A stretch of DNA of 64,000 nt from a virus: the IMG/VR virus record IMGVR_UViG_3300031703_000599, positions 34,609 to 98,608 of that record; one strand, given 5' to 3'. Within the stretch, counting starts at the first letter, position 1; each line of letters starts with the position of its first letter. The notes below the pieces were generated by a model that searched no databases, had not been told where the DNA came from, and was given only the letters and a program-made list of their open reading frames with translations. Positions 10,532 through 62,086 of this stretch are shown one piece after another. The translations under genes were made by a program, and so were the position numbers.

Positions 10532-10560
10532 ATTATAACAAGATGTCTTGCTAATGTCAA
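10532..10560 (-). promoter_or_regulatory. Consensus sigma70 promoter TTGACA-17-TATAAT
   Basis: Both hexamers are perfect (10555-10560 and 10532-10537, minus strand). The palindrome AACCGGTT overlaps the upstream edge of the -35 box. It is divergent from the radical-SAM cluster that begins at about 10.6 kb on the plus strand. Confidence 0.9.
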
Positions 10561-45500: not shown

Positions 45501-46070
45501 AAATCCAGTTTTGTCTGCAATCTCGTTGTTACTGTATGCGTTAGGATTTTCATAATCAAACCATTGGTCATAATCGTATGTGCGTGTTTCAATAACATCA
45601 CCGTTTGAATCTGTTATCTCAACAACTACAATTAATGTGTCGTATTGGTCTTTGTATGCGCTGTCTAGTAGATTGCCTGTGTTTAAGTCAACACGGTTCT
45701 CAATGTTTTCTCTACAATGTTCACGAGTTGGTGCGCCCTCTGATGTCTTTGTATTAAAGCAACCAGTTGACCACTTCCATGAATAATGGACTTTGTCAAC
45801 TGATATACCCTCTTGTTGGAGAGCAGTATTGATAGCAAACGATAATGCAAACGTATCGTAACACGCGCCGAATCCAATGATGTTATGGCCTTTTGCAATA
45901 GACATCGCATTAGTCTTTCCTGCAGGACAATCGCTTTGGTACGTATATACTGCATCGCCTACTACTCCTACAATTGGATCAGTTATTACTGGATCAGCTA
46001 CTGTACTAGAGGAAAAGTAGGAAAAGCAAAAGACTACCGCCAGCTTTAAGCAGATCATTATTGTTTTCAT
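42543..46070 (-). CDS. Secreted Cys-repeat protein, 1175 aa
   Basis: Signal peptide MKTIMICLKLAVVFCFSYFS with an A-D site leads to two non-repeat domains. About 23 repeats of about 22 residues follow, with consensus C-T-A-S-P-L-Y-D-S-S-C-T-G-Y-x-x-A-Y-x-x-Q-Q, about 19 of them in one array (roughly residues 445-865). After it come a Pro/Val/Ile stretch, a Glu/Thr repeat (EEETVEEETVE), a Lys-rich part (KKPIVKKMTKAQKQKAKMKK) and a C-terminal YVPGFSQYGKLVLPGADMYI. Two Cys per repeat suggest disulphide-linked extracellular rods. The start is supported by an AGGAG site 8 nt upstream. Function unknown; receptor or tail-fibre-like binding is possible. Confidence 0.85.
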   Translation of the reverse strand: MKTIMICLKLAVVFCFSYFSSSTVADPVITDPIVGVVGDAVYTYQSDCPAGKTNAMSIAKGHNIIGFGACYDTFALSFAINTALQQEGISVDKVHYSWKWSTGCFNTKTSEGAPTREHCRENIENRVDLNTGNLLDSAYKDQYDTLIVVVEITDSNGDVIETRTYDYDQWFDYENPNAYSNNEIADKTGFIWQIEEDFIQLYDHTNKTGTIYAPDSLGSATFRVTGKDNGMWDGTYGPLVKDNAVWFTYRANPCALTALYDPSCSGYSEAYAEHEYTANCSANELYDPGCPGYTAAYEQQQYNNSCAADALYDSGCTGYATAYYDQQCSSDAQYDAGCPNWIDYSGVKKTDSAMNVSGEGSDYIFIYRPNNPVQFDTLLANLDNLTAWAWECQLSNNEECPGTKTGYISGTNWDGGDYLFLYTADSDNNTVFPDSGRWYDFIEIEYWTTNCTADALWDVSCTDYATALEQLQYTQNCTADPMYDSGCTGYATAYESYQCEQNALYSSSCSGYDAAYYDYQCTASPLYDSSCTGYDTAYLLQQCSANALYDSSCTGYDTAYYDQQCTASPLYDSSCTGYTEAYYDQQCTASPLYDSGCSGYELAYYDQQCTASPLYDSSCTGYADAYFNQQCTASPLYDSSCTGYDTAYMDQQCTANTLYNIECPGYADAYFNQQCTASPLYDSSCTGYADAYFNQQCTASPLYDSSCSGYNAAYLGQQCTVSALYSSECPGYTAAYMDYQCGLDATYDSSCTGYADAYLLQQCTASPLYNSSCAGYDTAYLLQQCTASPLYDSSCTGYAAAYMDYQCGLDATYDSSCTGYEGAYLLQQCELNTLYDMRCAGYTSAYFNQQCLQNPQSDTQCSGYVAPVIETPATSPVVIEGTGTGDAVIDSIIAAPIVIPVPIVIPPPVEVVPVVAAPAPVVQPIQVQIQIATGAPAETTEQLEAAIEQEIAAEFEVELEVEIVEPDVEVVEVVEVEVVEVVEETVEEETAEEEAVEEETVEEETVEKETTDEKVEEETTEKEVEDEPTEKEVIDEELVEEEETSEDTTEKEEVVEPKPIVKKPIVKKMTKAQKQKAKMKKMKEIVANKLAKLAKVMGEAQSLKDQQALQAQISALINYVPGFSQYGKLVLPGADMYISEDIYRNQKTPPPGRGLLNGLASQILHEKMVDQQYKE
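43478..44738. repeat. Imperfect 66-bp tandem repeat array in the Cys-repeat gene
   Basis: Roughly 19 units of 66 bp encode the Cys repeat. Neighbouring units differ at third positions and in the x-x-A-Y-x-x segment, so the array is old and diversifying rather than newly expanded. The frame-preserving 66-bp periodicity causes long false frames on both strands. Confidence 0.9.
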
Positions 46071-46551
46071 TATTTACTTTCTCCTGGCTAATATTTTCTG
46101 GACGCGGCTTAGGTCTTGGTTCACCCCAGCCTGCTTGTGCTTCGTCACCTATCTTACCCAGGTATGGACAAGGAGTGCCTGCCATTTCCATTGCATCAAA
46201 TACTCGTTCATCTTGACACATAATACTAACAGCAGCGACCTTCATGCCCATGTCGTACATTGTCTTTGCTAGCTTTAAACGTTCACAGTTTTTATCTGTT
46301 GTAGTTGTGCCTGCACTAATGCCCAGTATTTGTGTTTGTACTGCGCCGCTGGTTCCTACTACGCATAAATCAGCATTACTTCCGTTAATGCTTGGACTAA
46401 TTGCGCTAGGTGGTGGGCTTTTTACTGTTGTTTTGTTTGTGCCGCTTGTCGTTACTGTGCTGTTGCTAGTTGAATCTGTTACAATTGGTTCTGCTAAAGC
46501 AAGAGTAGATCCCATTAGTAAGACAAGCATTATTGTTATAAATTGTTTCAT
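46006..46551 (-). CDS. Secreted/membrane-tethered phage protein, 181 aa
   Basis: Signal peptide MKQFITIMLVLLMGSTLALA, a Ser/Thr/Asn linker (TSNSTVTTSGTNKTTVKSPP), then DLCVVGTSGAVQTQILGISA, which I recall in marine phages, and a C-terminal hydrophobic end (GGSLLLFLLFL). Four Cys after the linker may pair. Overlaps the start of the large repeat protein by 65 nt and shares its transcript. A late-like motif lies upstream. Function unknown. Confidence 0.75.
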   Translation of the reverse strand: MKQFITIMLVLLMGSTLALAEPIVTDSTSNSTVTTSGTNKTTVKSPPPSAISPSINGSNADLCVVGTSGAVQTQILGISAGTTTTDKNCERLKLAKTMYDMGMKVAAVSIMCQDERVFDAMEMAGTPCPYLGKIGDEAQAGWGEPRPKPRPENISQEKVNNENNNDLLKAGGSLLLFLLFL

Positions 46552-49226: not shown

Positions 49227-50276
49227 TTACTGTGCTACAATTTCTGGCTTGTATGCTGAATCATAACCTAGTGACTCATTTTGGAATTTCAACATAGTAC
49301 GTAATGCATTCTCTGTTGTGAATGACAAAATGTTGTCTCGGTTGTTATCGCCATCTGCGCCGATTGCCCATTCATAGTTGCCAACTTTCTTAGCAATTGC
49401 TGCAATGGAGTCTGGGTTTTGTGACATAGCTGTTAGTGCTGCTACTAGTTTTGCACGGTCCGGTGAACCCTTCTTAATCCAAAGTGCTTTCTGCATACCA
49501 TCACGGAATGACTTAGATAGCTTGTATCCATCATAGAAGTCTCCACTTGGTGCTACGCCCCACTTCTGTTCAAACAACATCTCAAACTGCAATCCAGGAT
49601 GATTTGGATCATCTGCGTGTGATCCATCTGCTGCTAATAGTCCGTGTGTAAACCATACTTCTGATGATTCATCTTTAGCTACGTGCTTCTTGTATGCTGC
49701 AGGGTTCTCACGTGTATGAGTAAGTTCATTACGTGTGTATGCTAGGCGCCCTGCGCCCTGTTGCATTCCCTTTACCCAAGTAACATTGTCTGAAAAACAA
49801 GATGCATAGTCGTCAGCGGCGCCATCTGGTCCACACACTAGCATCATTATTGCCATCATTTCTGGCAAACGAGCTGAGTCTGCTGCCATTCTAATGTTGT
49901 TGTCTGATGCACCAATCTTACGACCAGTTACAATAGTCAAATTCATCATGCCAATTGAATCATAATCACCGTATTTGTAATCGACTGCATCTAGTAAATA
50001 CTTTAGGGCGTTGCCGCCATTAGAAACCATTACAGTTTTTTCATTATCTTGTAGTCCATTATGGAACTTGTTAAAAGCCAACAAACTACGTCCACCTGGG
50101 ATGTGTTGAATTGTGATTTTCTCTCCATCTAAGAATTTCTCTAGTTCTGCAGCTACAATTGCTGTCCATACTGCTGTGCCGCCGCCTGGCTTCTGCGGTA
50201 CGATAAACGTATAATCCGCTACTGCTGTTGTTGCAAGCATCATGCTTGCGATAATACTAAGTAAAATCTTTTTCAT
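49227..50276 (-). CDS. tctC: TctC/Bug-type substrate-binding protein, 349 aa
   Basis: Signal peptide MKKILLSIIASMMLATTAVA, then YTFIVPQKPGGGTAVWTAIV with the P-G-G-G-T loop of TctC/Bug proteins, and IPGGRSLLAFNKFHNG. In bacteria this periplasmic protein captures tri- or dicarboxylates for the TctA/TctB permease. A long insert with two Cys (LVCGPDGAADDYASCFS) is unusual. It is behind tctA in one operon; no tctB gene follows. Confidence 0.75.
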   Translation of the reverse strand: MKKILLSIIASMMLATTAVADYTFIVPQKPGGGTAVWTAIVAAELEKFLDGEKITIQHIPGGRSLLAFNKFHNGLQDNEKTVMVSNGGNALKYLLDAVDYKYGDYDSIGMMNLTIVTGRKIGASDNNIRMAADSARLPEMMAIMMLVCGPDGAADDYASCFSDNVTWVKGMQQGAGRLAYTRNELTHTRENPAAYKKHVAKDESSEVWFTHGLLAADGSHADDPNHPGLQFEMLFEQKWGVAPSGDFYDGYKLSKSFRDGMQKALWIKKGSPDRAKLVAALTAMSQNPDSIAAIAKKVGNYEWAIGADGDNNRDNILSFTTENALRTMLKFQNESLGYDSAYKPEIVAQ

Positions 50277-50308: not shown

Positions 50309-51802
50309 TTACACAAAATCAATTCGTGCTTTGTTGTAAAATAGTCCCCATATCAGTGCTGCAATTGCTGCTACTGCAAAGAACAATGGTAGTGGATTGA
50401 ATACAATGTCCTGCCATCCATAACCGAATGTATTGAACTGTATCCAACTTGATTCTATTCTTGCACTAAGAATATAACCGATTAAGAAACTAACACGTGA
50501 AAACTTTAAGTATTTCATTGTTAGACCTACTAACATACATATACCCAATACAACATAGTCTTCAATGAAGCCTGTGTACTGTACTGATGCCCACACCAAT
50601 GACGCTAAGATAGGCCAGAAGTAATAAGCAAACGGTATATTAGTAATGTATACTGCATACCTGATGAATCCATAAGCAACTGGAAGAATGATTAACAAAC
50701 TCCACATATAACTGCTTAGTAATACATCAAAGAATCTTTCATCTTGCAGGACGTCCACTGTACCTAGCTCTAAGCCAACGTACATAAACAATCCCATAAT
50801 TATAACTTCAAACGATGCACCTGGAATACCAAACAAGATTGTTGGCACATAACTGGTTGCTTTCTGAGCATTATTTGCTCCTTCGCATCCAATTACACCT
50901 CGTACATTTCCTTGTCCTACAGTGTCGCCGTCCTTGCTAGCAGCTGCAACTGTTTGACTGTAAGCAAACCAGTCTGCAATTGCTCCGCCAATACCTGGGA
51001 TTAATCCAACAAACGCTCCAATAAAGCCTCCTCGTAATCCATCCCATCTGTATATCCAACTATCTTTTATACCCTGTATTAGCTGTTCTTTGATATTGTC
51101 TGCATCTAGTTTTACTGTTTCGTATCGTGTACGGAATGCACTTAGTAGTTCTGGAAACGCTAACAATCCTGCCATAACAGGAATCATTTGCACTCCATCT
51201 GCTAGATATATCCATGGTTCCCACATAAGTGATCCATCCACTATGCTAGGCATTATGGTTGTCCATCGCAGTGTTCCATCATCTGGATCTAATCCAATAT
51301 GACCCACACATACGCCTAATACTAGTGCAATTGCACCTCTAACAAAATACTTACTACTAATGAATACCACACAGGTCATTGCAAATATCAAGAAGGTAAA
51401 CATTTCTGCTGTGCCAAAGTATAATATGATTTTAGTATAGTATGGAAGAAAGAGGAACACCAGTAAGCCCCATATAACTCCATTGACCCAGCTGGTACTA
51501 ATTGCTGCACTTAATGCTCTTGGTGCTTCGCCTCGCCTGGTCATGGGAAATCCATCTACCATTGTGGCAGCGGCACTGCCTGCGCCTGGTATATTCATTA
51601 CAATAGCAGCAAAGCTGTCGCCGATGCTACTTGTAACTACAATTGCTGTTGTAAATACAACTAACATGTATGGATCTTCGAAATAACCAACAAACCCATA
51701 TATAGCAATTAGTCCTACTGTTGCGCCTGCTACTGGAACTAAGCCTATAAAGAATCCATAGACACATCCCATTAACAAAACAATAATATATGATTCAAAC
51801 AT
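50309..51802 (-). CDS. tctA: TctA-type tripartite tricarboxylate transporter permease, 497 aa
   Basis: At least ten hydrophobic helices; SIGDSFAAIVMNIPGAGSAA in the first half and GLIPGIGGAIADWFAYSQTV in the second are the duplicated G-x-P-G-x-x motifs of TctA. FGIPGASFEVIIMG is also typical. It imports carboxylates with sodium or protons. The protein is full length. TctB is not encoded in the window. The 5' untranslated leader is long (about 170 nt). Confidence 0.88.
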   Translation of the reverse strand: MFESYIIVLLMGCVYGFFIGLVPVAGATVGLIAIYGFVGYFEDPYMLVVFTTAIVVTSSIGDSFAAIVMNIPGAGSAAATMVDGFPMTRRGEAPRALSAAISTSWVNGVIWGLLVFLFLPYYTKIILYFGTAEMFTFLIFAMTCVVFISSKYFVRGAIALVLGVCVGHIGLDPDDGTLRWTTIMPSIVDGSLMWEPWIYLADGVQMIPVMAGLLAFPELLSAFRTRYETVKLDADNIKEQLIQGIKDSWIYRWDGLRGGFIGAFVGLIPGIGGAIADWFAYSQTVAAASKDGDTVGQGNVRGVIGCEGANNAQKATSYVPTILFGIPGASFEVIIMGLFMYVGLELGTVDVLQDERFFDVLLSSYMWSLLIILPVAYGFIRYAVYITNIPFAYYFWPILASLVWASVQYTGFIEDYVVLGICMLVGLTMKYLKFSRVSFLIGYILSARIESSWIQFNTFGYGWQDIVFNPLPLFFAVAAIAALIWGLFYNKARIDFV

Positions 51803-52028: not shown

Positions 52029-52907
52029 TCATTTATAGTCTCGCCATCTGTCATGCCGTTTATTATGTGCCTGTATTGTTCTATCTATTACAATTGCCAA
52101 GGCAACAATGGATAGTCCACTAATTACTCCAAGCCCAAGATATCCGTTGCCAATTGCGTTCATGACTTGCGAACCTAGTCCTCGCACTCCGATCATTGAT
52201 GCAATAACAACCATTGCTAATGCCATCATGACTGTTTGATTTATTCCACCGAGTATAACATTACGTGCAAGTGGTAATTCTATCAGTGCTAAAATATGCA
52301 TAGGTTTTAATCCCAATGCATGACCTGTTTCAACTAAGTCTTGATTAATTTCTCTAATGCCCAGGTTTGTAAATCTAATCACTGGTGGAATAGCAAATAT
52401 ACATATAGCAATTAAGCCAGGTACTTTGCCTAATCCAAATAACATTATTACTGGAATTAGATATACAAAACTAGGAATGGTTTGCATTAAATCTAGTATA
52501 GGTAGGATTATTCGTTGTGCTATTTTCTTCTTTGCCATTAGTATGCCAGTTGGTATACCAATAACTATACAAACAAATGTACTCACAACAACAATGGCAA
52601 GGGTACGCATAGTATCGTCCCACATGCCAACTAATCCAATCAATATGAAACTAGATATAAATCCTACAATCAGTTTCCAACTTCTCGCTACTTGCCAAAG
52701 CAATACACTTGATAGTATTAAAAATACATACCAAGGTGTAATAAGCAATAAGTTTTCAAACTGTATTAGTATCCATTGAAGTGGGGAGAGAAGTTCTGTT
52801 AACGACTCTCCCCAATTACTAGCAAACTCTCTAAATGTCGCATCGATTGACTTTTTTAAACTAGTTATAGTTTCCCTACCTAACGACGGAAAGTTTGCTT
52901 GTTTCAT
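52029..52907 (-). CDS. proW: ProW-type glycine betaine/proline ABC transporter permease, 292 aa
   Basis: Six or seven hydrophobic helices; GIPTGILMAKKKIAQRIILP, LDLMQTIPSFVYLIPVIMLF and the EAA loop EINQDLVETGHALGLKPMHI match ProW/OpuAB. It forms the membrane channel for quaternary amine import, normally with ATPase ProV. Coupled 1 nt after proX. No ProV ATPase is encoded nearby, so it would need the host ATPase. Confidence 0.9.
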   Translation of the reverse strand: MKQANFPSLGRETITSLKKSIDATFREFASNWGESLTELLSPLQWILIQFENLLLITPWYVFLILSSVLLWQVARSWKLIVGFISSFILIGLVGMWDDTMRTLAIVVVSTFVCIVIGIPTGILMAKKKIAQRIILPILDLMQTIPSFVYLIPVIMLFGLGKVPGLIAICIFAIPPVIRFTNLGIREINQDLVETGHALGLKPMHILALIELPLARNVILGGINQTVMMALAMVVIASMIGVRGLGSQVMNAIGNGYLGLGVISGLSIVALAIVIDRTIQAHNKRHDRWRDYK

Positions 52908-52908
52908 T

Positions 52909-53913
52909 CTAGTTCAACGTTGCTTTAATTTTAGTAGCAATATGGTCTGGGACCCATGTTGTCCAAAGTTCTGGATGTAGCGTTAAGAACTCAACTGCGG
53001 CATCTTCTGCTGTTGCTTGATTATCATCTGACCAAACTAACATTTCTGTTACTACACTGCCATCCAATGACCGTGCTGTTAGATAACTAATTACATCAGC
53101 ATCAAGTCCAGGTGTAACAATAGTTCCTGTTTCTGCTAATGGAAAACTTGAGGGCTGCGGATTGGCGCATTCTTCTGGTGCAACTGAGATACAATCAACC
53201 CAATTACTATCACCTGCGTATCCGATTTCAGAAACAATTGACTTTAGTCCTAAACGACCTACTAATACAGTTGGTGTCCAGTAATAACCAAATGCTGGTT
53301 GTCCTTTGACTACGGCGCCTTCCCAGTATGCATTAAGTCCTGCACCTGAACCTGGGTCTAATAACTTCCAGCCCTTTGCTTCCATGTCGAATGCTACAAA
53401 CAAATTGTCATTGTGCTTTTTACATGACCATCCTTCTGGACAAACTACAATTCCACCTTTAGAAGAATCTTCTGGGTGTGGAAATAAATCTGGTCGTGCT
53501 AATACATCTTCAACTGTATTAAGTCCGAATTCAGTCGAAACATAATTTGGAATATACCATCCTTCTCCTGCACCAACTACTACTTCATCCCTTACTTGAA
53601 TAAGCGTTCCGTTTGCGATGTATTCTTGTGCTGAATCACCAAGTAATGATGTCCATGCTTCGCCAAATATGTTAGGTGAACCAGTTGCCATCATTGATTG
53701 AATTGTTGCGTCAATTCCACCTGGGATTAACTCTACATCATGTCCATATCCATTGGTTAAGATATACGCATCGATGTTCGCAATCATTGACCCTGATTGC
53801 CAATTTAATTCAGCAATTTTAATTTCATCAGCATGTGCAGCGTTGCCAGTTAATGCAAGCATGATTGCTGTCGTGCTCAAGAAACGTGTTATGTGTTTAC
53901 TAGTCATTTTCAT
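52909..53913 (-). CDS. proX: ProX/OpuAC-type substrate-binding protein, 334 aa
   Basis: Signal peptide MKMTSKHITRFLSTTAIMLA ... NAAHA, then IKIAELNWQSGSMIANIDAY and ending in a typical OpuAC domain with several Trp (GWYIPNY, YWTPTVL) that would cage a quaternary amine. The GIDATIQSMMATGSPNIFGE segment fits the family. It starts the proX-proW operon behind its own promoter. Confidence 0.85.
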   Translation of the reverse strand: MKMTSKHITRFLSTTAIMLALTGNAAHADEIKIAELNWQSGSMIANIDAYILTNGYGHDVELIPGGIDATIQSMMATGSPNIFGEAWTSLLGDSAQEYIANGTLIQVRDEVVVGAGEGWYIPNYVSTEFGLNTVEDVLARPDLFPHPEDSSKGGIVVCPEGWSCKKHNDNLFVAFDMEAKGWKLLDPGSGAGLNAYWEGAVVKGQPAFGYYWTPTVLVGRLGLKSIVSEIGYAGDSNWVDCISVAPEECANPQPSSFPLAETGTIVTPGLDADVISYLTARSLDGSVVTEMLVWSDDNQATAEDAAVEFLTLHPELWTTWVPDHIATKIKATLN

Positions 53914-54013: not shown

Positions 54014-54595
54014 TTATTTCTTCTTAAATATAGTCATAACATGATATTTTTGGCCCTCATCTATTGTGACTAACGATTTAATAATTTCTTCAGAAACTAT
54101 TTCTAGATAGGTCTGATCTCTCCAGCCCATTAACTGTAACGGGTCTTCTTTGTCAACAATTGATACTGAGGCAATCAGTAGTCCATCATCCTCTAATGAT
54201 TCTGCAAACATCTTAGCACTACTTGAATGTATATGAGATTTATTAAAAGCACCTATGACTGTTATGCATCTGTACTTTTTGGGTAACGGATTATTGTTCA
54301 TATCATGTAATGTCGTAGAACGGTAATTGACAGATTCAAATGTGTTTAACATCTTAGGATTAATATCATATCCATCAATTACATAATCTTTGTTGTTAAA
54401 TCCTATTCCAATTTGTCCGTTGCCACACGCAACATCTGCCATTTCGGTTCCATGTTCAAAATTATCTCTTACCCAGTTGTTCGCATAAGCAATAGGACCG
54501 TCCATCCAACCTGCTTCAATACACCATTTATTATAATCCCAATCTTTATATAATTCGTCCACACTTATATCTAATACATTTTTAAGCCAACTCAT
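54014..54595 (-). CDS. Class I SAM-dependent methyltransferase, 193 aa
   Basis: EMADVACGNGQIGIGF is motif I and VIDGYDINPKML holds the motif II acid. Small size suits a small-molecule methyltransferase. It is the last gene of the biosynthetic operon, coupled to the nitroreductase by ATGA. Confidence 0.75.
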   Translation of the reverse strand: MSWLKNVLDISVDELYKDWDYNKWCIEAGWMDGPIAYANNWVRDNFEHGTEMADVACGNGQIGIGFNNKDYVIDGYDINPKMLNTFESVNYRSTTLHDMNNNPLPKKYRCITVIGAFNKSHIHSSSAKMFAESLEDDGLLIASVSIVDKEDPLQLMGWRDQTYLEIVSEEIIKSLVTIDEGQKYHVMTIFKKK

Positions 54596-55281
54596 TTGTA
54601 ATACTCCACCTTTTCATTTATATTCTGTCTTTCTGTTCTATACTGATTAATACTACTAGTAGTATCTTCATATCCCATGCTCATGCCACAAAGGACTATC
54701 TTGTCTTTATATTCTGGAAATTCTTCTCTTACAATATCAGCATACTCTCCAAGTGAACCCTGCGAACAGGTTGCAAGTCCATTTTCAACTGCTAACAACA
54801 TAATAGATTGTAGGAACATCCCATAGTCTAAATACGAACCTTTGCCCAGTTCTTTGTCAATGAAGAATAATAACATTACGGGCGCATCAAACCCTCTGTA
54901 ATTTTTAGCATATAGTTCGTCTTTACGCTCTATCATTTCTCTAGTAATGCCTAGTTGTGAATATAATGCTAATCCACATGCTTTTCTATTTTCTTTATAC
55001 TTACCAAACCATTTAGTATCCTTTTCAGACTTTTTATCCTGTGGATAATATTCATAATCCATTACAGGTTGCTTACCTGAAATAAATGCATTTTCTAATT
55101 TAGCACATAAATTATTTTTCGCACCACCAGTCAACACTGCTACTTGCCAAGGCTGATGATTATCTCCACTAGGAGATAACATTGATTGTTCTAATATGTG
55201 TTTGACAATAGATATGTCTACTTCCTTATCCAAGTACGCACGTATTGATTTACGTTTTTCTACTGCGTCGCTAACAATCAT
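54592..55281 (-). CDS. Nitroreductase-family flavoprotein, 229 aa
   Basis: VEKRKSIRAYLDKEVDISIV and SPSGDNHQPWQVAVLTG are the FMN-binding motifs, and NGLATCSQGSLGEYADIVRE the C-terminal one. The family reduces nitro groups or oxidises/dehydrogenates tailoring substrates (for example in peptide heterocycle formation). It is inside the biosynthetic operon, where a redox tailoring role is likely. Confidence 0.85.
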   Translation of the reverse strand: MIVSDAVEKRKSIRAYLDKEVDISIVKHILEQSMLSPSGDNHQPWQVAVLTGGAKNNLCAKLENAFISGKQPVMDYEYYPQDKKSEKDTKWFGKYKENRKACGLALYSQLGITREMIERKDELYAKNYRGFDAPVMLLFFIDKELGKGSYLDYGMFLQSIMLLAVENGLATCSQGSLGEYADIVREEFPEYKDKIVLCGMSMGYEDTTSSINQYRTERQNINEKVEYYK

Positions 55282-56711
55282 ACCTCAGAGTGAGATTTAA
55301 CGCTAACATGTTCTATGATGTGTTTTTTGTCACCATTTAACACAATATCTGCTAGCTGTCTTTTTTGTAATTTTTGTGGGGTCCTAGTGGCATCAGTTTG
55401 TCCGAAAAATAGTTTATCAGTAACATGATATATATCATGTGGTCTCTTTGATTGCTGTGCATTTTTATAGTTCTTGGCAACATCTGATGCAAGCGCGTTG
55501 CCCGTGTACATTACGTAATGTATTTCATCTTTAGAACAACTAGCAACATTTTCTACTCCTGGAACTTCTAATGCTAATGCTTCTACTAATCCTGTGTAAA
55601 CCTTAACACCACCTTTCATAAAGATAACATCATCAAATGCTCTGCCTTTGTAAAACCAAGCACCATTTTTGTTCTCAAACCTATCGCCGTCTGTTTGCCA
55701 GTCACGTGTGCCATACTTGTACCAAAGTACACCATTTTCATCATATTTAAGTTCACCATTATAAAACGCTGGATCGTATACAAACCCATAAAAGTTTTCT
55801 ATTGGATCACCGGGTCTATATTCTGCACGACTATGACAGTCTGCTTCTGTACTTGCCATCATATTGAACATACATACGAAGTTAAATTTCTTCTCAATAC
55901 TTCTAACAACTGATTCTGGAGTATGTCCACCTGAACATTCCCAATACTTGATACCGCTCCAATTAAAATCATCTGGGCATGCATCTACAATATTCTTAAT
56001 TGCAATAGGATATGAGATACAGCAATTAGGATTTGCTTTTTGTATCTGCTCTGGAATATCATCGCCATAATTTAAGAAGTGCAATCCACCGCCAACGTAA
56101 TACATTCGTAGTAAGTTGTAAGGATTGTATGTTGCTGTAAATCCATGCGTACATAGTATGTAAGGTCTTTCATCGTCTTCAAACTCGGGTGCTACTGCAA
56201 ATAAATGTTGAGTTGATGCGTGTGCTGTGCAACCTAATAATGTTTCTCCATTCACAATTGCGTTTTCGTGATCTTCATAATCCCAGAAGAAAGGATACAT
56301 TTCAAAGAACTCTTTAACTGTAGTTCCACTTGTCATTCCTCTGTATATCTCCAATGGATGCAAGATCGACGGACTTAGATCGTCAGTTAACATTGTTATT
56401 TCGTTGCTACGAATAGTACATATTGCGTTAGAGCCTGCAATTAATCCATTTAATTCCATCTTAGATTGTCTAGCATCTGCTTGTGTTGCTGATCCGCCGT
56501 TCTTAACACTAGCAAGAATCCATAAGTAATCATCTATTGTAACTTGATCTTCTGCTACTACGAAAACAACATGCGGACCGATTCCATGTTCTTTTAATCT
56601 TTCTATTTTAGCATCAAGGTTAGCATGTAACTCACCCCATGTAATTTGTTCTGTTGATGAACTTAGAAATATTTGATCATTACTAAGTTGTTTTTGTTTT
56701 TGTTTTAACAT
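55278..56711 (-). CDS. Adenylate-forming enzyme (ANL superfamily), 477 aa
   Basis: Core motifs appear in order: YRGMTSGTTVKEFF (A3 P-loop, T-S-G-T-T), AST-E-A-D (A5-like), TDGDRFENKNGAWFYKGRAF (A7/A8: D-G-D-R-F, G-R-x-D-D) and VKVYTGLVEAL. The C-terminal TRTPQKLQKRQL holds the A10 Lys region. The enzyme activates a carboxylic acid as adenylate, then forms a thioester or amide. No carrier-protein gene is in the window. The substrate cannot be read. Central gene of the operon. Confidence 0.88.
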   Translation of the reverse strand: MLKQKQKQLSNDQIFLSSSTEQITWGELHANLDAKIERLKEHGIGPHVVFVVAEDQVTIDDYLWILASVKNGGSATQADARQSKMELNGLIAGSNAICTIRSNEITMLTDDLSPSILHPLEIYRGMTSGTTVKEFFEMYPFFWDYEDHENAIVNGETLLGCTAHASTQHLFAVAPEFEDDERPYILCTHGFTATYNPYNLLRMYYVGGGLHFLNYGDDIPEQIQKANPNCCISYPIAIKNIVDACPDDFNWSGIKYWECSGGHTPESVVRSIEKKFNFVCMFNMMASTEADCHSRAEYRPGDPIENFYGFVYDPAFYNGELKYDENGVLWYKYGTRDWQTDGDRFENKNGAWFYKGRAFDDVIFMKGGVKVYTGLVEALALEVPGVENVASCSKDEIHYVMYTGNALASDVAKNYKNAQQSKRPHDIYHVTDKLFFGQTDATRTPQKLQKRQLADIVLNGDKKHIIEHVSVKSHSEV

Positions 56712-57583
56712 TATCTTACTACCTTTAGTTTTTCTATACTTTCATTATAAAATTTATTAGGCCCTAGTATATTAGTATAATCGAACGCTGTTCGCCAAAT
56801 CATTCTATCAACACTTTTAACCCAAGAACGTCTATGTAACGTGAGCAATTGGTCACATATTAAAAAGTCGCCTTCTCTGAGAACAAAATCAGTTATGTTT
56901 CTTCCTTTATACAAGTCTTTCCAAAACTTATCTTTTAGTTCTTCTATATCAATTGGTTCGTTTTTATACCATGCTTTGTCAAGGAATGCAGGTTGCCATA
57001 GCATAATTTCTTTATCAGTGTATGGATGTATATTAATTACATTTTGTCTTTCGTCAACGTGTTTAAAAACTTTATAATTGTTTAAACTAGGATCTCTAGC
57101 ATGTTCTTCAGGTGTTCCATATATTCCATGTGAACCTTGATTGAGTTGTGTTTTAACATTGCGCCACCATTCTTTTTCTTCTTCTGATAGATAATTAAAT
57201 GCAACTTGCGTGTTCATTAAACTTAATACAGTATCAGGACACGAACCCACACAATATAATCCTGTTAACAATTCTTTAAATTCACCAAAATGACATACTC
57301 CAAAGTCATGGTGGTATAATAAATCTGATGGACCAAACATTCCATGTGGGTCAGTACCAGTGGGCTGTGATGTAATTAGAGAAAGATCCGGGGTGTCTTC
57401 TGGATTAAACTGCATGTGTCCCATTGATGGATTTGAATCATTTGTATCGCCAATACGCTGACTGATATCAACTAACTCTTGTCTAGTAAATTCTTGGTCA
57501 TGCAACAATATATATCCATTAATTGCTAATTGATACATTGCGTCTTTTAATTCTATGTCGGTGTAGTCTGTTAAATTTTTCAT
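56711..57583 (-). CDS. TauD/TfdA-like 2OG-Fe(II) oxygenase, 290 aa
   Basis: SDLLYHHDFGVCHFGEFK holds the H-x-D pair, and LLTLHRRSWVKSVDRMIWR the distal His and the 2OG-binding Arg. DTPDLSLITSQ and LLTGLYCVGSCPDTVLSL are typical family spacing. The enzyme hydroxylates or otherwise oxidises a substrate with O2 and 2-oxoglutarate. Closely paralogous to the next gene. Starts 1 nt after its stop codon boundary. Confidence 0.85.
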   Translation of the reverse strand: MKNLTDYTDIELKDAMYQLAINGYILLHDQEFTRQELVDISQRIGDTNDSNPSMGHMQFNPEDTPDLSLITSQPTGTDPHGMFGPSDLLYHHDFGVCHFGEFKELLTGLYCVGSCPDTVLSLMNTQVAFNYLSEEEKEWWRNVKTQLNQGSHGIYGTPEEHARDPSLNNYKVFKHVDERQNVINIHPYTDKEIMLWQPAFLDKAWYKNEPIDIEELKDKFWKDLYKGRNITDFVLREGDFLICDQLLTLHRRSWVKSVDRMIWRTAFDYTNILGPNKFYNESIEKLKVVR

Positions 57584-57584
57584 T

Positions 57585-58436
57585 TCAATTTTTTCTATCT
57601 ATGGAATGTGTATAGTCTATTGCTACTCTCCATAGTTCTCTGTTTTTATCTAATATTGGCGAACGGCGGTGTAGAGTATAAAACTGGTCCATAATTAATA
57701 TGTCTCCTGGTCTAAAAACAATGTCTTTGATATATTTTGTTCTATTGATAACAGAATCAAACTTTTCTTGTAATGGTTCTATTTCTATCTGTTTGCCGTT
57801 GTGCCACGCTTTGCTTATTAATGGTGGTTGCCAATATAAGAATTCTTCGCCGCCAACTGGATGTTTGTTTACAACTGGCATTCTTTCATCGCCCGAATGC
57901 GGAGGTGCTTGTATATATTCGCCCATTCGTGCAGTTTCGGCAACCTTTCCACTATTTTTAGGTGGGTTCCAATATTTGCCCATTATACTTCCACCTTGAT
58001 TGTTTAGTTGCACTTCGACTCCACGCCACCATTCTTTTTCTTCTTCCGGCAAGTCTAAAAATGCATCACGATTATTACTCACTGATAAAACAGTATCAGG
58101 ACAATATTCCACACAATACAAACAAATTAACCATTCTTTGTGTTCCCACACATTGTCAACAACATGGTGTACTGTTCCATTTGAATGCCAATGTAAATCG
58201 CAATGTCCAAGTAACATATCCGGTTTAGGAGATACGATTGATATATCTGGATTATCACTAGGATTGAATTTCATGTACCCTAGCATATCATCGTCAGTGC
58301 TTCCTATTCGTCTGCAATAGTCAACTAATTCTTTTTGAGTGAACTGTTGGTCATAATGTAAAGTAAAGCCATCGGTTAGTATACGTTGCGCCTCATCCAA
58401 CATCTCACATTCAGTAAAGTCTTTTATCTGGTTCAT
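57585..58436 (-). CDS. TauD-like oxygenase with altered Fe ligand (H-x-N), 283 aa
   Basis: Aligned with the preceding paralogue, HCDLHWHSNGTVHH replaces the H-x-D metal pair by H-x-N, while the distal His/Arg in FYTLHRRSPILDKNRELWR are intact. LICLYCVEYCPDTVLSV is shared. Loss of the carboxylate ligand may change the reaction or inactivate the enzyme (in halogenases the acid is Gly/Ala). Could form a heterodimer with the other. ATGA overlap with the upstream gene. Confidence 0.8.
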   Translation of the reverse strand: MNQIKDFTECEMLDEAQRILTDGFTLHYDQQFTQKELVDYCRRIGSTDDDMLGYMKFNPSDNPDISIVSPKPDMLLGHCDLHWHSNGTVHHVVDNVWEHKEWLICLYCVEYCPDTVLSVSNNRDAFLDLPEEEKEWWRGVEVQLNNQGGSIMGKYWNPPKNSGKVAETARMGEYIQAPPHSGDERMPVVNKHPVGGEEFLYWQPPLISKAWHNGKQIEIEPLQEKFDSVINRTKYIKDIVFRPGDILIMDQFYTLHRRSPILDKNRELWRVAIDYTHSIDRKN

Positions 58437-58999
58437 TCGTTATCCGCCATGTATTGTCTATAATTTTGAAGTGCTTGTTTATATGATATATCTAATATCT
58501 TAAACTTTACAAACTTTCTCTCTGTAGGGAATGCCGGAACACTATGTTCTTTCATGATATTTAGCAAAGCACATTTGTAAGTGATAAGCCCATACGTTGG
58601 GAAATTTATAGGACCAGTGGGAGAAACTAATTGTATATTTACTGCACATTTAATAGGCTTTACTTTAGTAGTTGACCCAATATTTAATATATCACTGGGT
58701 AATTTATCTGAATGTACTGGAACTGATGTATTTGCTTCTTGAGTAAACGTCAATACTTCTATCTCGTTTGTTCCTAGTAATTCTCGTAATTGTTCGCATA
58801 TATTGTTTACTTCTGAATCAGGTTGAAGTGGGACACTTGCAATTAACCATGTCTCTGGGCCAGCGAACCAACTGTCAGTTTCAGTCTCTTTAAGTTCTTT
58901 AAAGTACGGCTCTAACTCTAACACATCTACTTCTTGTTGAAGTTTTTTGATGTCGTACTGTAGCGTTAGCTCTTGTACGTAATCTGATTCAAGTTGCAT
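58433..58999 (-). CDS. Putative 2OG-Fe(II)-type oxygenase, 188 aa
   Basis: TSVPVHSDKLP gives an H-x-D pair and LLNIMKEHSVPAFPTERKFV the distal His and Arg of a double-stranded beta-helix oxygenase. NIQLVSPTGPINFP lies between them, as in aspartyl/prolyl-hydroxylase-like proteins. Assignment is by pattern only. Third oxygenase in the operon. Confidence 0.6.
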   Translation of the reverse strand: MQLESDYVQELTLQYDIKKLQQEVDVLELEPYFKELKETETDSWFAGPETWLIASVPLQPDSEVNNICEQLRELLGTNEIEVLTFTQEANTSVPVHSDKLPSDILNIGSTTKVKPIKCAVNIQLVSPTGPINFPTYGLITYKCALLNIMKEHSVPAFPTERKFVKFKILDISYKQALQNYRQYMADNE

Positions 59000-59002
59000 T
59001 AA

Positions 59003-59680
59003 CTATCGTTTCTTTAATACAAAGAATATACGTCCGTTGTCTTGACGTATAGTAACGACCATACAACCAAATGCATTGGCTGCATTAATAATAAACTCTG
59101 GTGTCCATTCAAAGAAGTCAATCCATTCAGCTTCTGGTGCAGTGTGCATCTTGCCTGGGTTAACACGAAAGAATAGTAATCCTTTGTCTGATGTAAGTTC
59201 AATTGCATGTGACAGTTCCATTAAGATCTTATCACTGCTTCCAAAGTTAATACTGCCTAAGCTGATAACAACATCATATTCTTTGTCTTTATCTACAACA
59301 TAATCCATTATTGTGCTGTTAACATCAGCTCGTGTGTTGTATGGATCAATTCCTATTAGATTATTAATCTTGCCTTTGAACTCATTGTATCCGCAGCCTA
59401 AGTCTAGTACGTTAGCGGGCTCAAGTGAATTAATTTCATCAATTATACTTAACCCGCTGTACTTGTATTTCTTTGTCTGTGGCTGCCAAACTTTACTAAA
59501 GTATTGCTCTAGTACAAGGGTGTCTATTGTATTAGTTAACTCAACTATACTGTTTGCTTTTGCGTCTACTGTTACGTCAAATGTAGCTGAAATTGCTACC
59601 TTTAAGCTCTGTGGATTCATCAACAGTGCAGGTGACGCTTTAAGCATCTCTTGTAAACGATTAAATATTTTAATATTCAT
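59003..59680 (-). CDS. Class I SAM-dependent methyltransferase, 225 aa
   Basis: VLDLGCGYNEFKGKINNLIG with IDPYN is motif I and the Asp of motif II; paralogous to 48644-49168. About 60 extra N-terminal residues are helical. First gene of the biosynthetic operon, 32 nt after the -10 of a consensus promoter. Confidence 0.75.
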   Translation of the reverse strand: MNIKIFNRLQEMLKASPALLMNPQSLKVAISATFDVTVDAKANSIVELTNTIDTLVLEQYFSKVWQPQTKKYKYSGLSIIDEINSLEPANVLDLGCGYNEFKGKINNLIGIDPYNTRADVNSTIMDYVVDKDKEYDVVISLGSINFGSSDKILMELSHAIELTSDKGLLFFRVNPGKMHTAPEAEWIDFFEWTPEFIINAANAFGCMVVTIRQDNGRIFFVLKKR

Positions 59681-59857: not shown

Positions 59858-60587
59858 TGTAGTTTCTCCTATTCCATGCGTCAAGTACGTGTTCGCCTAG
59901 CAGGCGTTGGCCTGCTTTAGTAAAGTGGCCTTGGTCACCTTTGTTGTTTAGTATATTTACTAATTCTTTATGTTTGCCAACAGCGTCAAACAATGCTGAC
60001 ATGTTTAAATATTGTGCGTGTGTATGTTGGTATTTATAGTCAACATGACTGTGTGTTTTTATTACCCATGTTGGAATGTTGTTACGTTGTAGTATATTAT
60101 TAATATGACTGCATGCAGCTTTAACAAGACTTGGTAACATATCAGTGGCCGCTAGCTTGTGTAAGTAATCAACTGCATTGTCAGTTAAGTCTAAATTCCA
60201 ATTGCTATGTAATTGCTGTTGTAATGCAGGTCTATGCTGTAGTCCTCTGCTTAGTATTACACTGTCTTCTGTTAATTCATGTGTAACTATATTACCTAGC
60301 GTAGTACGAGCCCATAATGAATCTTGTGTTAATAAAAACTTAGGCTCTATGCTTTCTTGTATGATGCATGCATCGTATGTATCTAGCTCAGTACTTAACG
60401 GTCCATCTTCAATTGCTTGTAGCCAATTTAAATACCCTACTCCGTAGCCTGTGTAATGTGTAATTGTAGTTGCATCATTTTGTAATGCATCAATCCAACT
60501 ATGAGTACTAGTTAATTCCTCTTCGTCATTATTGTTAAAGCCATAGCTTCCTCTGCTGTAACTGCATCCTAGTACAAGGAGTTTCAC
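59841..60587 (-). CDS. SGNH hydrolase-like protein, 248 aa
   Basis: Begins MKLLVLGCSYSRGSYGFNNN (G-C-S-Y block I) and ends with GHFTKAGQRLLGEHVLDAW, where the catalytic His is in a D-x-G-H-F context. It overlaps the carbamoyltransferase stop (ATGA), suggesting a joint role in sugar decoration. Confidence 0.75.
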   Translation of the reverse strand: MKLLVLGCSYSRGSYGFNNNDEEELTSTHSWIDALQNDATTITHYTGYGVGYLNWLQAIEDGPLSTELDTYDACIIQESIEPKFLLTQDSLWARTTLGNIVTHELTEDSVILSRGLQHRPALQQQLHSNWNLDLTDNAVDYLHKLAATDMLPSLVKAACSHINNILQRNNIPTWVIKTHSHVDYKYQHTHAQYLNMSALFDAVGKHKELVNILNNKGDQGHFTKAGQRLLGEHVLDAWNRRNYNVEPS

Positions 60588-62086
60588 TTATCATCCGTTG
60601 TAACAACTGTTACGTTATACTGTTCTGTCCAGCGTTTTGCATCCAATTCATTGTCTACCATTGGCTCACCTTTTATGTTTAGGCTAGTGTTAAGTAACAT
60701 TGGTCCATTACCTTCTGCTTGCCACTTGTCTAACAAGTTGTACAGTCCTGGATTTTGAATCTTATTAACAGTTTGTACTCTGCTTGTTCCATCTATATGT
60801 GTAATTGCAGGGTATAAGTCAGGACGTTTTGTACGACCCACAAACTGCATAAACGGACTACTGTGTACACCCTGTGGCATGTCAAAGTATTCGTGTAAGT
60901 ATTCTTCTTTAATGACTGGAGCAAATGGTCTAAACGCTTGTCGTTGCTTAACTGTATTAACTAAATCTTGCATTGATTTGCCGCGTGGGTCAGCTAACAA
61001 ACTTCTGTTACCTAATGCACGTGGACCAAACTCGGCACGTCCACTTGCTACTCCTACCATGCCTGTGTTCTGTAATTCTTTTAATGCAGCATTAACTGGG
61101 TAGCTGCCTGGGATGTTGTAACCTAGATATGGATTATTAAACTCTACAAACTCACGTGTGTGATCTAATACACACCCAATGCTGCTGCCTGCGTCGCCTG
61201 GGTTAGGCATAATCCATACACCTTTAAAGAACTTATGTGCAATGCTATTAGCAACACAATTTAATGCACAACCGCCCATTAGTACAATGTTCTTTGAGTT
61301 AACTAACAACGATGCCTCAACACATAAATGTGTAAATATCTCTTCGTACACTGCTTGAACGCCTGCTGCAATGTCTGCGTAGTCTTGTACACTGTTTAAC
61401 TCGGGTGCCCAGTCGCGGCATCCTCTGTGTAAGTTACGTTTAAATTTAACACTCATCTCGCCTCGTTTCATGGGCACAATGAAATCATTGTATATCTTAT
61501 CTTTATATTTGTTAGGATCGCCTACTGCTGCCCATCCCATTAATATATATTCATCTTCGTTTGGCTTTAATCCAATGCGCTGTGTCATTGCACTGTACCA
61601 CAGTCCTAGACTGTTTGGGTAGCTTTGACTAAATCGTTTCTTTAATGTACGGTCTCGTCCTTCCCACAGTGTAAGTGTTTCAAACTCACCTATGCTGTCT
61701 ATTACTAGTACTGCGGCATCTCTATACGGACTTGTGTAATAGCCTGCAGCGGCATGACTAGCATGATGCCTATGATTAATTACATGATTGTCTATTCCAA
61801 GGGCTGACAGTGTCTTACTTGGGCTAGGTTTATTAAATGCTGTGCTGTATTGGCCTGCACGTAGCTGACGCATCTTCTTTAACCACGGAGTCTCGTACCA
61901 GTGTACCTCTGTTGGTTCACCAAACTCTAATGCTTGTGCAATTAAAGATTCATTTAAATAAGCATCATTCTTTTTACCACTGCTTCGTTCTGCGTGTGCA
62001 GCGAATGCAATGTCGTTACCTTTAAATACTGCAAGGGCTGCATCGTGTGCGTCTGCTGTAATTCCCCATCTAATATGATTATTCAT
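60584..62086 (-). CDS. NodU/CmcH-family carbamoyltransferase, 500 aa
   Basis: HHASHAAAGYY (metal/carbamoyl-phosphate domain), MGGCALNCVAN, EFGPRALGNRSLLADPR and RPFAPVIKEE are the signature blocks. The enzyme makes carbamoyl-adenylate and transfers the carbamoyl group to a hydroxyl, often on sugars or natural products. I recall homologues in T4-like cyanophages. The nearby nucleotidyltransferase, HAD and SGNH genes suggest a glycan acceptor. Confidence 0.92.
   Translation of the reverse strand: MNNHIRWGITADAHDAALAVFKGNDIAFAAHAERSSGKKNDAYLNESLIAQALEFGEPTEVHWYETPWLKKMRQLRAGQYSTAFNKPSPSKTLSALGIDNHVINHRHHASHAAAGYYTSPYRDAAVLVIDSIGEFETLTLWEGRDRTLKKRFSQSYPNSLGLWYSAMTQRIGLKPNEDEYILMGWAAVGDPNKYKDKIYNDFIVPMKRGEMSVKFKRNLHRGCRDWAPELNSVQDYADIAAGVQAVYEEIFTHLCVEASLLVNSKNIVLMGGCALNCVANSIAHKFFKGVWIMPNPGDAGSSIGCVLDHTREFVEFNNPYLGYNIPGSYPVNAALKELQNTGMVGVASGRAEFGPRALGNRSLLADPRGKSMQDLVNTVKQRQAFRPFAPVIKEEYLHEYFDMPQGVHSSPFMQFVGRTKRPDLYPAITHIDGTSRVQTVNKIQNPGLYNLLDKWQAEGNGPMLLNTSLNIKGEPMVDNELDAKRWTEQYNVTVVTTDDK

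Follow-up and report, generated by a model that had tools for sequence, protein, structure and literature searches.

What use does an ocean virus have for seven enzyme genes in tight succession and, beside them, the parts of an importer? The question is raised by a 64,000-nucleotide stretch of DNA (the window, throughout), which spans positions 34609-98608 and so forms the 3' end of the 98,608-base virus record IMGVR_UViG_3300031703_000599, a record whose viral class was assigned by IMG/VR. A sequence-only reading of the window had proposed a seven-gene biosynthetic operon behind one consensus promoter, encoding a small-molecule pathway. We know of no pathway of this composition, and no description of the gene set was found in the open-access texts and with the terms searched. 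Here, we show that an enzyme core within the operon recurs across marine viral loci, very probably as a conserved functional unit. Tentatively, we propose that this core and its neighbouring transport genes make up a mobile cassette of auxiliary metabolism carried by large tailed phages of the sea, serving to import and process an osmolyte during infection.

The operon's layout proved exactly as first described: seven coupled minus-strand open reading frames (ORFs) occupy positions 54014-59680, separated in order of transcription by 3, -4, +1, -1, -4 and -4 nt, behind a promoter that matches the consensus at all 12 positions and has a palindromic spacer. In transcriptional order, its features are:

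59740-59712, minus strand: sigma-70-type promoter of the enzyme operon, TTGACA-17-TATAAT (12/12), spacer palindrome CATGAT-TG-ATCATG
59003..59680, minus strand: MT1, putative methyltransferase, 225 amino acids (aa); the operon's first gene
58433..58999, minus strand: small protein resembling 2-oxoglutarate (2OG) oxygenases (58433 below), 188 aa; in the operon, outside the conserved core
57585..58436, minus strand: TauDa, protein of TauD fold in which HxN replaces HxD, 283 aa; core gene
56711..57583, minus strand: TauDb, TauD/TfdA 2OG-Fe oxygenase with HxD...H, 290 aa; core gene
55278..56711, minus strand: ANL, divergent adenylate-forming enzyme, 477 aa; core gene
54592..55281, minus strand: NTR, PnbA/NfnB-like nitroreductase, 229 aa; core gene
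54014..54595, minus strand: MT2, S-adenosylmethionine (SAM)-dependent methyltransferase, 193 aa; core gene

A conserved enzyme core in marine viruses

Relatives were sought in 2.9 million IMG/VR contigs by pattern-based scans that catch close relatives only, and the counts given here are therefore samples. ANL occurred in 22 viral contigs at 57-87% identity, representing about ten non-redundant loci which, together with the window, make 11. Across these 11 marine viral loci (L numbers denote loci, G numbers viral records) the recurring unit is one or two TauD genes followed by ANL, NTR and MT2. MT2 is conserved in 10 of the 11, and all eight loci that have NTR preserve the gene order ANL-NTR-MT2, which in L006 is interrupted by a single additional gene after ANL. 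It had been stated beforehand that the pathway idea would fail if the genes were unlinked in relatives. They are linked: viral contigs recovered independently through NTR (15/15), TauD (18/18) or MT2 (20/21) also carry ANL, the single exception being L137, where MT2 stands directly before a pair of genes for a substrate-binding protein (SBP) and a permease, and 9.3 kb of contig holds no ANL.

The conserved unit is smaller than the operon. The operon as a seven-gene unit was rejected, as neither 58433 nor MT1 recurs with the core. Just two more phage loci, L014 and L142, showed relatives of 58433, and relatives of MT1 (cluster c6) lie near genes of the TctA transporter family (L005, L014, L020 and L022). 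The core's frequent partner is instead the SBP-permease pair, whose genes (52909 and 52029) fall outside the span first assigned to the operon.

Selection has acted on every gene for which it was measured. Median NG86 dN/dS values, approximate since dS is high for many pairs, were 0.16 for ANL, 0.14 for NTR, 0.26 for MT2, 0.11 for TauDa, 0.25 for TauDb, 0.22 for the SBP and 0.15 for the permease; all seven genes are under purifying selection. Chance assembly of the core is contradicted by these low ratios and by its synteny in ten other non-redundant viral loci. The same evidence bears on the notion that these are decaying or passenger genes, ORFs that hitch-hike without a selected function through a hypervariable region. 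Gene content does differ between loci, and the TauD gene present in L022 is missing between ANL and MT2 in the near-identical L020; against this stand the dN/dS medians of 0.11-0.26, conserved active-site residues, strong promoters and synteny across phage lineages, and we consider that explanation very improbable.

The carriers belong to different lineages. Those in which a terminase (G006, G014, G018) or gp23 (G014, G015, G018) was found are bona fide tailed phages. The gp23 of L018/G014 is 71-74% identical to that of jumbo phages such as Phosso and PA5oct, and that of L022/G018 is 70% identical to that of the Methylophilales phages Melnitz. Between G014 and G018, gp23 is only 36% identical whereas ANL is 59% identical, from which it follows that the cassette has probably moved between phage lineages by horizontal transfer.

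Outside these uncultivated viruses the core has been elusive. A tblastn search of 50,697 isolate phage records with ANL, and another with the SBP, gave no match, and a pattern scan of GTDB found no cellular relative of ANL. The reading had suggested a co-occurrence search of phage and bacterial genomes; while the core proved syntenic in other viral contigs, ANL was not found in the roughly 700 bacterial genomes sampled. An ANL profile that recovered the phage copies at 1e-270 or better, as a positive control, found nothing in 297 genomes from the order to which a SAR11 genome belongs, and in 399 genomes from the phylum of a Rhodobacteraceae genome it gave just three matches, all partial and generic (E 1.6e-5 to 9e-4); these searches sample their databases and are no full survey.

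Enzyme families and active sites

How secure are the functions assigned to these genes? The original family calls survive to different degrees. The nitroreductase and both TauD proteins match their families above cut-off, ANL falls just short, the two methyltransferases are weak and 58433 has no family match. NTR matches its family over its full length (PF00881 3e-19, PF14512 8e-10; PDB 3gr3 4e-53, NfnB 2wzv 2e-29). MT2 gives weak Methyltransf_23/25 matches under cut-off and carries the motif DVACGNGQ, while MT1 matches Methyltransf_23 at 3e-4, likewise under cut-off.

ANL scores 29.0 bits against PF00501 (6e-7), where the curated cut-off is 29.9. NCBIfam ANL models nevertheless match its N-terminal, middle and C-terminal parts collinearly and at the correct profile positions, and its motifs A3 (T127-SGTT), A5 (S287-TEA), A7 (T340-DGD), A8 (G356-R..DD..K.G.K) and A10 (K447) are invariant in 11/11 homologues. 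The A10 lysine, placed at K447 through alignment to DltA, was a second point on which the pathway idea had been made to depend, and at the level of sequence it is present throughout. The predicted assignment thus draws on motifs and collinearity and not on one strong score; an AF2 model of ANL (pLDDT 48) was too poor for a fold test or a reading of the pocket.

Both TauD proteins match PF02668 above cut-off (1e-12 for TauDb, 4e-13 for TauDa), so that the earlier description of two TauD-like oxygenases holds for the family, with a qualification for the metal site. TauDb (56711) has a canonical HHD...H facial triad, with the distal His and Arg kept. In TauDa (57585) the sequence H84-S-N86 occupies the HxD position, replacing the facial-triad Asp, and this HSN is kept in orthologues. 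Among 15 aligned family members, nine have HxN and six HxD, with distal His256 and both Arg residues invariant. In L016, L018 and L019 the HxN form is the sole cassette TauD, which makes it more than a redundant duplicate; it also occurs at L014:14432-15292. An AF2 model of TauDa (pLDDT 72) has the TauD fold (Foldseek probability 1.00, TM 0.66-0.69 to E. coli TauD), with the HSN loop below pLDDT 50 and its metal geometry consequently unreadable. For 58433, Pfam, NCBIfam and PHROG gave no match; H96-D98-H152-R161 (H-x-D...H...R) is invariant in four homologues, one of which weakly matches Asp_Arg_Hydrox (E 0.02), and it is plausibly a 2OG oxygenase.

A second, very short ANL-like family of about 232 aa, which stops at the A8 region and has neither N- nor C-terminal part, adjoins the conserved families c9 and c11 at several loci (L010:15537-16235, L012:6107-6808, L014:4784-5530, L016:17698-18408 and L020:8242-8922). 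Profile-profile comparison of this family with the cassette ANL, with few effective sequences, gave no support for a relationship.

An importer beside the core

Downstream of the enzyme operon in the window lie genes for transport:

54001-53973, minus strand: SBP-permease promoter, TTGACA-17-TACAAT (11/12), palindromic spacer
52909..53913, minus strand: DmpX-like SBP with OpuAC fold, 334 aa (PF04069 8e-37)
52029..52907, minus strand: ProW/DmpW-like ABC permease, 292 aa (PF00528 1e-25)
52008-51980, minus strand: promoter of the TctA unit, TTGACA-17-TATAAT (12/12)
50309..51802, minus strand: TctA-family membrane transporter, 497 aa (PF01970 3e-83)
49227..50276, minus strand: secreted-looking TctA partner, 349 aa, with a signal-like N-terminus; adjoins TctA in relatives

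Gaps of 100 nt and 226 nt separate the enzyme operon from the SBP-permease unit and that unit from TctA. Because separate promoters precede the next two units (54001 and 52008), transcription of the enzyme operon probably stops past 54014, and the transporters appear to be transcribed as units of their own. The SBP-permease pair is close to the core in 8/11 loci, on either side: before TauD in L005, L006, L014, L018 and, with one ORF between, L012/L130; before ANL in L019; and after MT2 in the window and L010. TctA and its partner, which matches no Pfam family and is probably TctA's binding protein, lie near the cassette in 6/11 loci. No gene for an ABC ATPase stands beside the SBP-permease pair; the only PF00005 matches above cut-off, in G014 and G021, lie a long way from the cassette, and the records are fragments. 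The window permease is 56% identical to a proteobacterial ProW of an SBP-permease-ATPase operon, and bacterial contigs with permease relatives hold ordinary betaine-type operons of this kind, in which the enzyme core was not found.

The best solved relative of the binding protein gives a clue to its ligand. Against solved structures, the SBP profile matched RnDmpX (7YLE) at 1.5e-56, the next chain being 4XZ6 at 3.6e-6. In Ruegeria, DmpXWV imports dimethylsulfoniopropionate (DMSP), which DmpX holds in a pocket of Trp35, Thr64, Trp84, Glu113, Trp152, Ala153, Tyr200 and Trp202 (PMC10030565). Phage SBPs keep six of the eight (W35, W84, E113, W152, Y200 and W202), and in most of them T64 has become I and A153 S.

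A further clue comes from a related cassette. In L019, a 27.8-kb contig with gp23, the genes run SBP-permease-ANL-X-TauD. Here X (L019:5353-6573), overlapping ANL by 4 nt, encodes a DddP-like M24 protein and is a candidate DMSP lyase (NF043017 DddP, 9e-83). It matches RlDddP (4RZY) at 8e-70 with 33% identity and keeps 8/8 of the expected residues: D295, D297, D307, H371, E406 and E421 as metal ligands, together with Y366 and D377. The metal ligands, Tyr366 and Asp377 are invariant in DddP (PMC4108388).

Proposed osmolyte processing and its alternatives

What might such a combination do for a phage? We suggest that the phage SBP and permease would join a host ATPase of the ProV/DmpV type and so increase the import of an osmolyte that is a zwitterionic onium compound, with DMSP or something close to it (glycine betaine, or a carnitine-like compound) as the most likely candidate. 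ANL would then activate the carboxylate of the osmolyte, or of its breakdown product, as an acyl-adenylate or thioester; the TauD and flavin enzymes (the latter the nitroreductase) would oxidise, cleave or reduce the product; and MT2 would transfer a methyl group. For the phage, the gain could be reduced sulfur, methyl groups or carbon for replication, or else a modified metabolite. The parts and their co-inheritance are seen in the sequence, whereas the ATPase partnership, the substrate, the sequence of enzyme steps and the product are what we infer. Of the small-molecule pathway first proposed, a conserved and linked enzyme operon on a viral record stands, while the sequence does not establish a self-contained biosynthetic pathway; the importer and the DddP-like gene of L019 point to osmolyte uptake and processing at least as much as to biosynthesis of a new metabolite.

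Several observations weigh against osmolyte processing as we propose it. The importer is not near ANL in 3/11 loci (L016, L020 and L022), and it occurs in eight viral contigs in which ANL was not found (L129, L136, L137, L138, L139, L142, L143 and L144). Thr64, a carboxylate contact, is present in all 76 aligned bacterial SBPs (chosen through their permease) and is Ile in most phage SBPs. The pocket is otherwise nearly the same in those 76, so that DMSP is not singled out. At 278 bits, the DddP-like protein falls short of the 600-bit NCBIfam equivalog cut-off, and its gene was seen in one contig only, L019, and not in the window record. Although structures of the DMSP-pathway ligase DmdB are deposited in the structure database, the ANL profile gave no match to it among solved structures, and we know of no DMSP pathway in which TauD, ANL and a nitroreductase occur together.

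Because those bacterial proteins so nearly share it, the pocket supports an onium of the DMSP/betaine class and not DMSP specifically, and Ile at position 64 may shift the specificity of the SBP. An imported substrate of that class seems a reasonable expectation, and DMSP itself a possibility that we hold with less conviction. The DmpX-type pocket was dropped as a proof of DMSP, being widespread among related SBPs. Also dropped was the idea that a TauD protein might be a DsyD-type enzyme of DMSP synthesis, DsyD being ureidoglycolate-lyase-like (PMC11306096).

In a different explanation, the enzymes produce or modify a small molecule that has nothing to do with the importer (a modified amino or fatty acid, a decoration of the virion or cell surface, or an isonitrile-like metallophore, for example), and the SBP-permease genes, independent of them, just lie next door in a region that is plastic and rich in genes. 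Besides the contigs in which no ANL was found and the three loci noted above, this would accord with a region that also holds a carbamoyltransferase, a nucleotidyltransferase and an HAD protein. In the isonitrile pathway (ScoA-E, Rv0096-0101), a TauD-like 2OG enzyme is likewise accompanied by an ANL, and FadD10 is the ANL of an isonitrile-type pathway; the Foldseek neighbours of TauDa include the isonitrile-forming SfaA, ScoE and Rv0097, the L022 TauD weakly matches a ScoE model, and FadD10 weakly matches the C-terminal part of ANL. These isonitrile-family matches are, however, of generic strength, and neither a carrier protein nor a ScoD-like thioesterase was recognised, by eye and by partial family scans, among neighbouring ORFs of at least 70 aa in the 11 loci. 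We know of no counterpart in the isonitrile pathway to the transporter or the nitroreductase. Moreover, the importer stays close to the core in most loci despite the permuted order, which supports a link between import and enzymes, and MT2 stands beside it in a contig where no ANL was found. An unrelated molecule is on balance doubtful. In the contigs where no ANL was found nearby, the SBP-permease pair, again without an ATPase, sits between replication or structural genes.

A simpler use would be plain scavenging of nutrients or osmolytes, in which the importer takes up DMSP or betaine and the enzymes form a short catabolic route to acrylate, acyl-CoA or methanethiol, and no new metabolite is made. 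Hosts of the SAR11 type need reduced sulfur, which such a route would supply along with carbon; the DddP-like lyase candidate within the L019 cassette fits, as does an S-adenosylmethionine synthetase (MetK) in the window phage. Set against this, only weak links to Pelagibacter and Roseobacter phages bear on the host, and we know of no role for a nitroreductase or methyltransferase in the known DMSP lyase and demethylation routes. We regard scavenging of this kind as unlikely. About equally unlikely, in our estimation, is a pathway of the phage's own, not known from cells, in which a DMSP-class osmolyte, the phage-specific ANL, the HxN TauD, the nitroreductase and the methyltransferase would yield a new metabolite or a sulfur or methyl currency; in that case ocean viruses would act directly on the DMSP cycle with chemistry of their own. 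Osmolyte import and processing by a mobile cassette remains the reading we favour, if tentatively.

Genomic context

The window record has neither a detected gp23 nor a detected terminase, and direct structural evidence was therefore taken from the other cassette carriers. Its PHROG matches include an HNH endonuclease, an exonuclease, thymidine kinase, ribose-phosphate pyrophosphokinase, QueC/QueE-like proteins and GTP cyclohydrolase. Because many genes of the window recur in the same order, at roughly 40-85% identity, in the 184-kb record G004, the window phage is large and its record a fragment. Other genes of the window bear on its host and metabolism:

46006-46551: secreted-looking protein, 181 aa, matching the Pelagibacter phages Mosig and HTVC023P and others, including Roseobacter phage isolates
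16213..17301, minus strand: MetK, complete, 362 aa (PF02773/PF02772/PF00438); also in G002-G005

The first of these is a weak hint of an alphaproteobacterial host. MetK could possibly supply SAM to the cassette. The phage would need much methionine and SAM, given MetK itself and an unusually dense stretch of radical-SAM-like ORFs that lies upstream of the window (L003:3664-16933 and L004:1512-10926, or about 3.7-28.4 kb of the record, judged by eye), which is interleaved with 2OG-like, aminotransferase-like and sulfotransferase-like ORFs. QueC, QueE-like and GTP cyclohydrolase I genes in the window form a 7-deazaguanine-type set, which suggests modified phage DNA. The carbamoyltransferase, of NodU/TobZ type, lies upstream of the operon at 60584-62086 with the nucleotidyltransferase and HAD protein, and has a relative in L005.

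The operon's promoter is not special, because the record holds 25 of its kind with at most one mismatch, compared with 1-9 in locally shuffled sequence. Near-perfect examples stand at about 985, 1566 and 2235 of the record (plus strand) and at 10560, 54001 and 59740 of the window (minus strand). Several have palindromic spacers, among which CAAGACATCTTG recurs, and such spacers are possible operator sites for a phage regulator.

Relation to known systems and implications

The cassette lies on several viruses with viral genes on the same records, as a phage auxiliary metabolic module should, and a phage metabolic cassette is a known kind of system, although its chemistry could prove new. Among marine phage auxiliary metabolic genes, cyanophage pstS is likewise tied to host transport. 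Here too, large marine tailed phages carry a periplasmic binding protein that apparently uses host transporter parts, but in this case the binding protein and permease accompany a multi-enzyme core whose ANL was not found in the cells sampled. The importer would work in the manner of DmpXWV or ProXWV. Its resemblance to DmpXWV (PMC10030565) lies in an SBP and permease of the same families, with equivalents of the aromatic cage, Glu113 and Tyr200 kept. The phage SBP, however, is about 31% identical to RnDmpX, and with no adjacent ATPase gene, a changed carboxylate contact and a putative ligand, we do not claim membership of that system. The L019 gene similarly finds its best matches among DddP models and structures of the M24 fold and has all their metal and catalytic residues, yet differs in its modest identity to 4RZY, its score below the NCBIfam cut-off and its occurrence in one contig.

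DMSP is among the most abundant marine organosulfur compounds and the source of the climate-active gas dimethyl sulfide. In the titles and abstracts matched by our search of the open-access literature, phages were not reported to carry any gene for taking up or cleaving DMSP. If the cassette works as proposed, it would represent a rare phage small-molecule pathway, with its ANL family and HxN TauD family as candidates for new chemistry. An importer and private enzyme cassette that is both mobile and under selection would then make viral control of the DMSP cycle directly testable.

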